A stretch of DNA of 56,648 bases from Deltaproteobacteria bacterium (GTDB taxonomy: Bacteria; Desulfobacterota; Binatia; UBA9968): NCBI GenBank assembly GCA_016874755.1, contig VGTH01000035.1, positions 1 through 56,648 on the forward strand. The letters run 5' to 3'. A program made the translations under genes and the position numbers. Below are positions 24,666 to 27,345 of the stretch, one piece after another. The number at the start of each line of letters is the position of its first letter. The stretch's first letter is position 1. The notes beneath the pieces are model-generated. The model worked only from the letters and a program-made list of their open reading frames with translations. It did not search any database and was not told where the DNA came from.

Positions 24666-25688
24666 ATGATCCTGAATATTATTTTACTGACGCTTGCCCT
24701 TGCGCTTGGGATCGCCGGTCCGGCCAAGGCCCAGGAAGATCCTTTCAAAGACAGGACCCTCAAATTCATTGTCGGCTACTCGCCGGGCGGCACCTACGAT
24801 CAATACACCCGCCTGATGGCGCGTCACATCGGCAAATATCTGCCGGGCAATCCGGCGCGCATCGTCGAGAACATGACCGGCGCCGGCGGGATCATTGCGG
24901 CGAATCATCTTTACAATGTCGTCAAGCCGGATGGTTTAACTGTGGCAGCCTGGGCATCGCCGTTGATTTTGCAGCACATCATGGGCAACGAGGCGATCAA
25001 GTTCGACGGACGCAAAGTCGGTTGGGTCGGCATTCCTGGGCCATACGATACCGCTTGTCATTTCGGCGCTCACAGCGGCATTCGCACGATGAACGATTGG
25101 ATCAACTCGAAGCGGCCGTTGAAGATTTCTTCCATCGGTCCCGGCACCAGTCTTTCTGACGTGCCGAAGCTGTTGAAAGCAGCGCTGAACTTGCCGCTCG
25201 AAATGGTCGAGGGTTACAAGGGCGGCTCAGAGGCGCGCCTCGCTGTGGAGAGCGGGGAGGTCGATGGGCTGTGCGCTTCGTGGCAGGCAACCAAAGTGAG
25301 TTGGCGCAGTCAGATGGAAGCAGGCAAGATTCACGTCGTGCTGCAAGCGACGTTCACATCGCATCCGGACTTGAAGAAAGTTCCGCTGGCGATCAACTAC
25401 GCCAAGACTGAAGAGGCAAAAACGCTTTTGAAAGTTGCCGACAACGTGCATGTCTACCAATTCCCGTTTTCGGTCGCGCCGGGCACACCGCCCGAGCGGC
25501 TGCGCGCTTTGCAGCAGGCTTTTGTGAATACTTTTCGTGACAAGGAACTGGTCGCCGAAGCGAACAAGGCGCAGCTCGAAGTTGAACCGATCGACGGGGT
25601 TACGACGGCCAAGACATTTAATAGCTTGTACGATTTAAGTCCGGCGTTGATTGCCAAGTTGAAAGATATTTTGATTCCGAAGAGATAA
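24666..25688 (+). CDS. Bug-family (tripartite tricarboxylate transporter-like) binding protein, copy 1
   Basis: A 340-residue periplasmic binding protein of the Bug/TctC family. The signal peptide ILLTLALALGIAGPAKA ends before QEDPFKDRTLK. Family hallmarks are FIVGYSPGGTYDQYTRLMARHI, the PGNPARIVENMTGAGGIIAANHLY ligand-loop region, and VAPGTPPERLRALQQAF in the C-lobe. These proteins bind carboxylates, aromatic acids or similar anions. No TctA/TctB membrane subunits lie nearby, so it is an orphan, as is common for Bug genes. Two paralogues follow at 27444 and 28502. Confidence 0.87.
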   Translation: MILNIILLTLALALGIAGPAKAQEDPFKDRTLKFIVGYSPGGTYDQYTRLMARHIGKYLPGNPARIVENMTGAGGIIAANHLYNVVKPDGLTVAAWASPLILQHIMGNEAIKFDGRKVGWVGIPGPYDTACHFGAHSGIRTMNDWINSKRPLKISSIGPGTSLSDVPKLLKAALNLPLEMVEGYKGGSEARLAVESGEVDGLCASWQATKVSWRSQMEAGKIHVVLQATFTSHPDLKKVPLAINYAKTEEAKTLLKVADNVHVYQFPFSVAPGTPPERLRALQQAFVNTFRDKELVAEANKAQLEVEPIDGVTTAKTFNSLYDLSPALIAKLKDILIPKR

Positions 25689-25734: not shown

Positions 25735-25775
25735 GAGCCCTTCGACAGGCTCAGGGCAAACGGTCAAACGCATTC
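25735..25775. repeat. Partial element of the CCCTTCGACAGGCTCAGGG family
   Basis: GGAGCCCTTCGACAGGCTCA followed by GGGCAAACGG matches one arm of the longer palindrome at 39716-39802. It lies 38 bases upstream of the peroxiredoxin start. Confidence 0.6.
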
Positions 25776-25812
25776 TTAGTTCGGGGTGACGGACGAAAGC
25801 TGGAGACAGGCT

Positions 25813-26346
25813 ATGGCTAAGATCCGATTTGCATTAATAGCTTTTGTTGCGGCGTTCGCACTTGCCAGCGCTGCCCATGCCATCGAAGTGGGCGACAAGG
25901 CGCCAGATTTTGAACTGACCAGCACGCAGGGCGGCAAACTCAAACTCAGCAGTTTTCAGGGCAAGAAAAATGTCCTGATCGAATTTTACGTGCTCGACTT
26001 CACACCGACTTGAATTCAAGAACTGTCGTCCAGTCGGGACGACTATTCGAAATTCCAAGAAGTCGACGCTGAAGTCATCGGCATCAGCGGCAATCTGAGT
26101 TTTTCGCAGAAAGCCTTCGCCGATTTTCTCAAGCTCACATTTCCATTGCTGAGCGATTATCCGGACATGAAAACCACTGAGACCTATGGCGTGCTCAACC
26201 CGCAGTCCAAGTTGGCGACGCGCTCATATTTTATTGTCGATAAGCAAGGGATCATTCGCTACAAGAAAGTTCAGGGGCGCGGCGAAGCGTTGGTGGCCAA
26301 CGATTTGTTGGTCGCTGAGATTAGAAAGATCAATCAGGGGCACTGA
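25813..26346 (+). CDS. Peroxiredoxin (AhpC/TSA), predicted selenoprotein with in-frame TGA as selenocysteine 67
   Basis: The frame has one internal TGA at 26011-26013 and then stays open to the TGA at 26344-26346, with peroxiredoxin similarity on both sides. Before it: signal peptide (ALIAFVAAFALASAAHA), VGDKAPDFELTSTQGGKLKL, LIEFYVLDFTPT. After it: QELSSSRDDYSKF, VIGISGNLSFSQKAFADF, FPLLSDYP, SYFIVDKQGIIRY. The TGA falls exactly on the peroxidatic residue of the T-x-x-C/T-C motif (normally FTPTC). No other cysteine exists in the 177 residues. A hairpin fitting a bacterial SECIS starts right after it. So the TGA most likely encodes selenocysteine, giving an exported 1-Sec peroxide reductase. 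The ATG at 25813 gives a clean signal peptide. A conventional annotation would split this into two false ORFs, 25786-26013 and 26146-26346. Confidence 0.85.
26011..26055 (+). promoter_or_regulatory. Predicted bacterial SECIS element
   Basis: Directly after the internal TGA, GTCGTCC (26025-26031) pairs perfectly with GGACGAC (26037-26043) around the five-base loop AGTCG, whose second base is G, as the bacterial SECIS consensus needs. The loop starts 18 bases past the TGA, within the known working distance of about 16-37. A lower stem GAATT (26012-26016) with AATTC (26051-26055) extends the helix to the TGA itself. Confidence 0.75.
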
Positions 26347-26371: not shown

Positions 26372-26446
26372 TGTCATGCTGAGCGATAGCGAAGCATCTG
26401 CTGGCTAGCGACTAAGGCAGATGCTTCGGCGGACCTCAGCATGACA
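26372..26446. repeat. Dispersed palindrome, GTCATGCTGAGC family
   Basis: TGTCATGCTGAGCGATAGCG on the left pairs with CCTCAGCATGACA on the right, and an inner GAAGCATCTG/CAGATGCTTC pair extends the hairpin. It lies 26 bases past the peroxiredoxin stop and may act as its transcript end. Confidence 0.7.
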
Positions 26447-26475: not shown

Positions 26476-27345
26476 ATGAAAAAAGTGGTGGTCACGGGCG
26501 GCAGCGGCAACCTCGGGCAATTCGTCATTCGCGATTTGCTGGCGCGCGGCTATCAGGTGCTCAACCTCGACCGGGTGCGGCCGCGCGAAAGGCTGTGCAT
26601 GACCTGGCTCGTCGACCTGCGCCACTCGGGGGATATCTTTGAAGCGCTGCGCGGCGCTTACGGCATGATCCATCTGGGCGCCTACCAGGCGCCCAATTGG
26701 GTTCCCGATGCGGAGACGCTGAGCAATAATGTGTCGGCAACTTACAATGTCCTGCGGGCGGCAGCGGACATGGGCGTGAAGCGGGTGGTTTTGGCGTCGA
26801 GCACGGCGGCGTTCGGATTTATTTACGCCTTCAAACTCTGGGCGCCGGACTATTTGCCGCTGGATGAAAAACATCCCTCCAAGCCGCAGGACTCTTACGG
26901 TCTGTCCAAGGTGCTTGGCGAGCAGATCGCCGACTCGATCGTCTCGGTGCACAAGGACATGACCGTGTCGAGTCTGCGTTTCCCTGGCGTCAACTTCGAC
27001 CTCTCCTATGAAAGTTTTCGCGACCGTTGGAAAAACCCGGCAACGCGCACAAGCGGCTTTTGGACTTACATCGACGCGCGCGATGCGGCGATGACTTGCC
27101 GCTTGGCGTTGGAGGCCAAGTTCAAAGGCCACGAAGTCTTCATCGCCTCGGCGCCGAAGAACTGCATGATTCAACCAACTGAAGAGTTGGTCGCGCAATA
27201 CCTGCCGCGCGGCGCCAAGTTCCGCAAAACCACCGGCACGCACTGGAGCTGCGTCGATGCGAGCAAAGCTGCCCGCATGCTCGGCTTCAAACCGCAGCAT
27301 GTTTGGCAGGACTATCTTGCCGAAGGGCGCAGCGGCAAGTTCTAA
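26476..27345 (+). CDS. NAD(P)-dependent epimerase/dehydratase family protein
   Basis: A 289-residue extended short-chain dehydrogenase. The cofactor motif VVVTGGSGNLGQFVIRDL is at residues 4-21, the catalytic SSTAAFG and YGLSK (Y-x3-K) lie mid-protein, and the C-terminal region is typical of UDP-sugar epimerase-like proteins. The substrate is unknown; relatives act on nucleotide sugars or on aromatic and aldehyde intermediates. It sits between the peroxiredoxin and a Bug-type binding protein on the same strand, with 98 bases to the next gene. Confidence 0.85.
   Translation: MKKVVVTGGSGNLGQFVIRDLLARGYQVLNLDRVRPRERLCMTWLVDLRHSGDIFEALRGAYGMIHLGAYQAPNWVPDAETLSNNVSATYNVLRAAADMGVKRVVLASSTAAFGFIYAFKLWAPDYLPLDEKHPSKPQDSYGLSKVLGEQIADSIVSVHKDMTVSSLRFPGVNFDLSYESFRDRWKNPATRTSGFWTYIDARDAAMTCRLALEAKFKGHEVFIASAPKNCMIQPTEELVAQYLPRGAKFRKTTGTHWSCVDASKAARMLGFKPQHVWQDYLAEGRSGKF

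Follow-up and report, generated by a model that had tools for sequence, protein, structure and literature searches.

An Interrupted Peroxiredoxin Gene

The question raised by this locus is whether a peroxiredoxin gene split by an in-frame TGA is a broken gene or the gene of a selenoprotein. A first-pass annotation, made from the letters of the window (the whole stretch of DNA that was analysed, 56,648 nucleotides long), had claimed that a TGA at 26011 splits an otherwise full, exported peroxiredoxin exactly where the peroxidatic cysteine belongs and that the protein has no other cysteine. The observation of a TGA-interrupted exported peroxiredoxin is confirmed: the TGA is codon 67 and the sole stop ahead of the terminal TGA at 26344–26346, both sides of it match peroxiredoxin, and the frame holds no Cys codon (Table 1). 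By eye, a GGAG is present at 25802–25805, with the ATG 7 bases further on. The gene appears in two pieces in the list of open reading frames because TGA was taken there as a stop. From the 56 TGA read-through segments listed mechanically in the window, an overlap filter leaves five; among these, homology on both sides of the TGA was tested for 25813–26346 alone and was positive.

With the TGA read through, Pfam AhpC-TSA matches residues 26–150 (3.2e-34). In alignments with three solved structures, codon 67 faces Cys in 2ywn and in the AhpE of M. tuberculosis (4x1u) and Ser in 3hjp, and more distant homologues have Cys there (see below), which places the TGA at the peroxidatic position, as had been proposed. 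One simple explanation would be a pseudogene, a Cys peroxiredoxin in which a nonsense mutation, or an error in sequencing, has produced the TGA; a TGA is indeed one base away from TGC or TGT. Another would be a changed genetic code, or a suppressor, with TGA read as Trp or Cys; the open frame speaks for this, and nothing further was seen in its favour. The third, that the active site carries selenium inserted at the in-frame TGA, is very probably right. The selenocysteine (Sec) machinery of the genome, the TGA/TGC column in relatives and the RNA-level selection on a hairpin 3′ of the TGA together let the reading as a Sec peroxiredoxin stand.

Table 1. Features of the peroxiredoxin locus, in window coordinates.
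Feature	Position	Strand	Basis
Upstream neighbour, TctC-type solute-binding protein	24666..25688	+	Order kept in record L054
Sec-peroxiredoxin gene, TGA read as Sec	25813..26346	+	177 aa; frame, Pfam, orthologues
Predicted signal peptide MAKIRFALIAFVAAFALASAAHA	25813..25881	+	Sequence; cleavage site by eye; hydropathy
Val60 codon, where the PxxxTxxC signature has Pro	25990..25992	+	Sequence, clade comparison
TGA read as selenocysteine (Sec67), peroxidatic Cys position	26011..26013	+	Alignments with homologues
Putative bacterial SECIS hairpin	26025..26043	+	Stem 26025–26031/26037–26043, loop AGTCG 26032–26036; fold, covariation, codon conservation
Downstream neighbour, NAD-dependent epimerase/dehydratase	26476..27345	+	Order kept in record L054

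Selenocysteine Machinery

The annotation had supposed that the organism uses selenocysteine, and the genome containing the window (5.56 Mb in 101 contigs) bears this out, since selA, selB, selC (tRNA-Sec) and selD were all found in it. The tRNA-Sec scores 75.9 bits, above the Rfam cut-off, and is called tRNA-SeC with the anticodon tca by ARAGORN, while selA (600 bits), selB (411 bits) and selD (382 bits) adjoin one another on contig C16. Because one in-frame TGA lies inside selD (G000:C16:6375-7301, L051), its product is probably a selenoprotein itself.

Among 58 genomes, the window's counted, selA is present in 51. The pseudogene explanation can draw on G009, a genome listed as 100% complete, which has the TGA gene yet has neither selA nor a selB above the cut-off, and in which no tRNA-Sec was found among the 150 scored of 473 tRNA candidates. 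However, TGA-bearing peroxiredoxin matches occur on four contigs of G009, so an assembly gap seems likelier there than a dead gene, and the window's own genome has the machinery. In G014, selA is absent and selB does not rise above the cut-off, and a tRNA-Sec is present. G002 has no selA, no selB above the cut-off and no tRNA-Sec, and no peroxiredoxin match at 1e-20; G003 and G018 (67 and 71% complete) have selA, and neither a tRNA-Sec nor a peroxiredoxin match at 1e-20 was found in them.

The TGA Column in Relatives

Twenty-five genomes of the family were searched, the window's counted, and 22 gave matches at E ≤ 1e-20. All 55 of these matches, three of them from the window's genome, contain an in-frame TGA, which was placed in column 67 for the rows fetched individually and counted anywhere in frame for the others. 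In a sample of 297 genomes from the phylum, four (the window's and G009 included) had a match at 1e-27, and all five matches carry TGA. A scan of contigs from named genomes, in which the best 80 loci were kept, gave TGA at column 67 in at least 23 rows and TGC or TGT in at least 62; the latter, among the matches listed, are four TlpA-like neighbours and 58 Cys peroxiredoxins, all 58 with TGC. Orthologues thus have Sec in this column and more distant homologues have Cys, as expected of a Cys/Sec position. The closest named records among the matches listed are MAGs labelled Deltaproteobacteria, Betaproteobacteria, Proteobacteria and ‘Syntrophobacter sp. SbD2’. The same Sec gene, adjoined by one of TlpA type, occurs in four records labelled Betaproteobacteria (L056, L058, L059 and L070), which hints either at transfer between phyla or at mislabelled MAGs.

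A dead gene would be expected to decay 3′ of its stop. In comparisons of the window gene with six orthologues, this part gives a pN of 0.14–0.18 and a pS of 0.61–0.80, with a dN/dS of 0.07–0.14 in the three of six pairs in which dS (1.3–2.5) is unsaturated. Judging by these rates, the part 3′ of the TGA is under purifying selection and not decaying.

The changed code fares no better. The window gene and five of 23 named relatives use TGA as their terminal stop, the tRNA-Sec has the matching tca anticodon, and homologues show Cys at the aligned residue; the open frame notwithstanding, this explanation was rejected on these grounds and appears very improbable.

A Hairpin under Selection

Bacterial SECIS elements follow rules for the distance from the TGA to the loop and for a G within the first two loop bases. 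The G in the loop is also given in the legend to Fig. 7 of PMC2398784. The annotation had described a 7-bp hairpin with the loop AGTCG, starting 12 bases after the TGA, with the loop at a suitable distance for a SECIS. This hairpin was recovered, with 11 bases between the TGA and a stem of seven pairs, so that the loop, with its G, begins 18 nt past the TGA. It folds at −16.1 kcal/mol, against −8.29 ± 2.49 for shuffled sequences (z −3.14; 0 of 200 as good). Counting both strands, the window has 1628 TGA triplets, of which 21, the one at 26011 among them, are followed by a hairpin of such grade (at least seven Watson–Crick pairs, a loop of 4–8 with G in its first two bases, the loop 16–37 nt after the TGA). 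The pseudogene explanation may claim this frequency for itself, and the hairpin alone is weak evidence because of it; what counts is conservation and covariation.

In all 11 clade-1 genomes, the loop starts 18 nt past the TGA and reads AGTCG, AGTAG or GGTCG; L010 and L012 have six pairs rather than seven. In an alignment of these 11 rows, 97.4% of cells are paired, against 94.1 in shuffles. Three of the seven stem pairs are altered on both sides; shuffles give 0.4 ± 0.6 such pairs (1 of 500 as high), and the six slid controls give none. By the measure of further pair types, the alignment is unremarkable (67 of 500 shuffles as high), and the outermost pair is not formed in two of the 11 rows. 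These comparisons are to be read with the warning of the pair-count tool that related rows may surpass shuffles without structure.

The both-sided changes are synonymous, for example, TCG/GAC to TCA/GAT. Where the residue is the same, the codon is identical in 51 of 59 comparisons within the six hairpin codons. Identical codons number 170 of 347 upstream, 14 of 31 across the four codons preceding the hairpin and 293 of 604 further downstream; in other six-codon windows with at least 25 comparisons, identity is never above 0.76. The hairpin is therefore, on codon conservation and covariation, a structure under selection at the RNA level. Farther away, clade-2 hairpins lie mostly 19–22 nt past the TGA, some with merely four pairs, while L077, from a distant subclade, has a stem of eight pairs and different sequence at the same 18 nt. 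No clear SECIS-like element was found in L073 and L074. A search with Rfam matched none of its SECIS families, either across the window at the gathering score or within 25980–26100 at E ≤ 10.

A TGA kept in the same column across the orthologues of many genomes, purifying selection 3′ of it, a covarying hairpin and the Sec machinery of the genome led to the rejection of the pseudogene or sequencing error, the probability of which we regard as negligible. Insertion of Sec at TGA 26011 under the guidance of the hairpin is supported by sequence, comparative and RNA evidence.

An Exported Clade without the Signature Proline

In a tree of 51 rows (42 Sec and 9 Cys), 35 Sec rows group together with a support of 98/96 and without any Cys row, and a cytosolic Sec group of seven rows lies outside this clade. 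Named rows among the 35 carry the labels Deltaproteobacteria, Betaproteobacteria, Proteobacteria, Syntrophobacter, Methylomirabilota and Rokubacteria. Ten loci (L011, L012, L014, L017, L020, L022 and L025–L028) were kept out of the tree, since contig and sequence mark them as presumed duplicates of genes in named records; six of the 56 Cys loci L078–L133 were retained in it, and four TlpA-like rows were excluded from both the tree and the Cys count. A 19-row alignment omits L018, which hardly differs from L016 and is present in the tree; the pairs L016/L018 and L031/L032 remain as near copies among the 35 rows. Since the tree and the counts were built from near hits to the window query, a Cys member of the exported clade may exist elsewhere. 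The Sec/Cys state requires two changes on the tree, which therefore neither shows nor excludes a single origin of all the Sec rows.

The N-terminus of the window protein reaches a best 12-residue hydropathy of 2.81. A hydrophobic N-terminus (12-residue hydropathy of at least 1.8) was found in 33 of the 35 clade rows but in none of the seven cytosolic Sec rows and none of eight Cys homologues, mostly from Streptomyces; the label ‘exported’ was given by clade first and the hydropathy test applied afterwards, with L038 omitted. Of the two clade rows below the threshold, one is clipped at a contig edge, and the other scored 1.44. These N-termini support the predicted export of the window peroxiredoxin.

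The signature of the family, PxxxT/SxxC(U), has Pro at −7 and Thr or Ser at −3 from the active residue. At −7, the 35 rows have V (24), I (6), G (2), L (1), R (1) and N (1) and never Pro, whereas Pro stands there in all 58 Cys homologues among the matches listed and in all seven cytosolic Sec rows. The window protein has Val60 in place of the Pro and retains the Thr as Thr64; T at −3 is found in it and in clade 1, but many other members have S, N, D or A there. The Pro and Thr of PxxxTxxC are called strictly conserved in the available text of PMC5719442, and PxxxTxxU is called highly conserved in Sec peroxiredoxins in that of a recent review (PMC13188914). The loss of the Pro throughout the sampled exported clade suggests that Sec may have relaxed, or the clade altered, the usual active-site geometry.

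The cytosolic-type Sec peroxiredoxins of the same order (L029, L030 and L033–L037), like one in the window's own genome, share the TGA column and the lineage with the window protein but differ from it in having no export signal (seven rows) and in keeping the Pro. The one in the window's genome (G000:C8:225-695, L041), a third Sec peroxiredoxin with no evident export signal and the Pro kept (PLDWTPTU), provides this contrast within a single genome. A second exported-type Sec peroxiredoxin is encoded there at G000:C73:15004-15327 (L040, L141), with FYVLDFSPTU; past ‘...FADF’, about 100 bases short of the contig end, its frame is no longer homologous, owing perhaps to a frameshift, to truncation of the gene or to misassembly. 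In another record (L061:1011-2242, CAMDBU010000177.1), two exported-type Sec peroxiredoxin genes, both with TGA, form a tandem pair.

Peroxidase or Another Reductase?

An AlphaFold2 model built from the 19-row alignment (pLDDT 86.6, pTM 0.81) has an AhpC/TSA (thioredoxin-like) fold with residue 67 close to the start of helix 65–76. The best solved folds for the model are the archaeal Bcp4 (3hjp) and the 1-Cys peroxiredoxin AhpE of M. tuberculosis (1xvw, 4x1u), with a TM of about 0.8 over the query. AhpE and the window protein both have a single peroxidatic residue; it is Cys in AhpE, which keeps the Pro (FFPLAFTGIC), and Sec in the window protein, which has Val60. Arg137, which from an alignment by eye we take to be the presumptive catalytic arginine of peroxiredoxins, is unchanged across the 19 aligned rows.

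Selenoprotein Prx (PF00578, TxxU), of which PrxU of Eubacterium acidaminophilum is an example, is the closest known family. That peroxiredoxins are a known selenoprotein class, as the annotation held, agrees with the consulted portions of PMC2398784, where Prx (TxxU) is listed as a selenoprotein family with 253 sequences in GOS, and of PMC1794560, PMC5029168 and PMC9312934. The window gene is a variant of a known family because that family is already listed. The AhpC/TSA fold, the peroxidatic Sec and the T at −3 are common to both (PMC2398784, PMC9312934, PMC13188914). The window protein differs from the family in being exported, in having Val for the Pro of PxxxTxxU, in having no Cys and in falling below the PrxU cut-off: of the 13 NCBIfam models with a match to it, not one reaches its own cut-off, and PrxU (NF040737) scores 64.8 bits against a curated cut-off of 270. 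What is new here, on the rows sampled, is a Sec peroxiredoxin that is exported, Pro-less and without a Cys member, and the Sec peroxiredoxin family itself is known. In mainly open-access literature, represented by accessible text on Sec peroxiredoxins, on export or the periplasm, on TlpA/CcdA/ScsB and on these lineages, there was no description of this clade.

Peroxidase activity is not to be taken for granted, because the signature Pro is missing. The exported clade might instead comprise selenoenzymes of peroxiredoxin fold with another activity, such as a thiol or organic-substrate oxidoreductase, as the absence of the Pro from 35 of 35 rows, the replacement of the signature Thr by S, N, D or A in some of these rows and the lack of any NCBIfam match at cut-off would allow. 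However, Thr64 is retained in the window protein, the presumed catalytic Arg137 is invariant in 19 rows, and AhpE/Bcp is the closest fold of the model. Moreover, TlpA/CcdA neighbours in relatives (see below) would suit a peroxide-scavenging relay in the envelope of the kind outlined in the available part of PMC5403849. We therefore consider a non-peroxidase unlikely.

Gene Neighbourhood and Reductant

An outside partner must presumably reduce Sec67, because the protein has no Cys. In six of 11 clade-1 genomes (L012/L055, L015, L056, L058, L059 and L070), a gene for a TlpA-like CxxC protein comes next 3′ on the same strand. It is followed by CcdA in two of them, L055 (DsbD_TM) and L015 (start only, as the contig ends), and a weaker TlpA-like match lies upstream of the Sec gene in two Rokubacteria records. 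The window Sec gene itself does not adjoin TlpA or CcdA. On contig C31 of its genome, however, genes for TlpA-like, CcdA and FolE-like proteins lie side by side in the same order as in L055, and the TlpA-like protein shares 64% identity with its counterpart in L055. We assigned the names TlpA and FolE from the sequences; Pfam calls the TlpA-like protein AhpC-TSA/Redoxin.

Repeat-like elements flank the window gene on both sides: an imperfect inverted repeat, GTCATGCTGAGC...AAGCATCTG / CAGATGCTTCG...CTCAGCATGAC, lies just 3′ of it at 26373–26446, and a CCCTTCGACAGGCTCAGG motif lies 5′ of it at 25738–25755.

The ScsB-TlpA-PprX relay of Caulobacter, as described in PMC5403849, supplies a peroxiredoxin of the cell envelope through a membrane carrier and TlpA. 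The window protein would resemble PprX in being an envelope peroxiredoxin served by a TlpA and a membrane carrier, although the carrier here would be of the CcdA type where Caulobacter has ScsB, and Sec is the active residue. By analogy, a CcdA-TlpA relay may follow the same logic. SelB and the tRNA-Sec(UCA) would insert Sec at TGA 26011, guided by the hairpin at 26025–26043. In the periplasm, Sec67 would attack peroxide and become a selenenic acid, and the oxidised Sec67 would then be reduced by the outside partner. The gene neighbourhood in relatives makes a TlpA-like periplasmic thioredoxin the likeliest such partner, with the membrane carrier CcdA recharging TlpA.

Another possibility is that the reductant is a small-molecule thiol or another exported thioredoxin. 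TlpA is absent beside the window gene and within the flanks examined of five of the 11 clade-1 genomes, the window's counted, which would suit such a reductant. On the other side are the TlpA-like gene next 3′ in the remaining six, the weaker match beside the gene in the two Rokubacteria records and the recurrence of the TlpA-CcdA-FolE order of L055 in the window's genome. We see a reductant other than TlpA/CcdA as a real possibility, if on balance a doubtful one. The explanation that best fits the observations, and in which we place high confidence, is an exported, AhpE/Bcp-like peroxiredoxin, with Sec67 inserted via SelB/tRNA-Sec and the hairpin and with an outside reductant that is likeliest to be TlpA/CcdA.

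Significance of the Exported Clade

A bolder proposal, which we put forward tentatively, is that the clade is a secreted, Sec-obligate branch of the peroxiredoxins in which the Pro, and in part the Thr, have become dispensable, a peroxide (or other) reductase of the envelope wired to TlpA-CcdA, with a chemistry that is no longer compatible with Cys. Gene callers that take TGA as a stop cut genes of this kind in two. The Pro-less exported clade would suggest that selenium lets a peroxiredoxin work with an active site that is absent from the 58 Cys homologues counted, and the clade could serve to test why certain enzymes retain Sec instead of going back to Cys. If true, this would also give the reducing pathways of the cell envelope a branch that depends on selenium.
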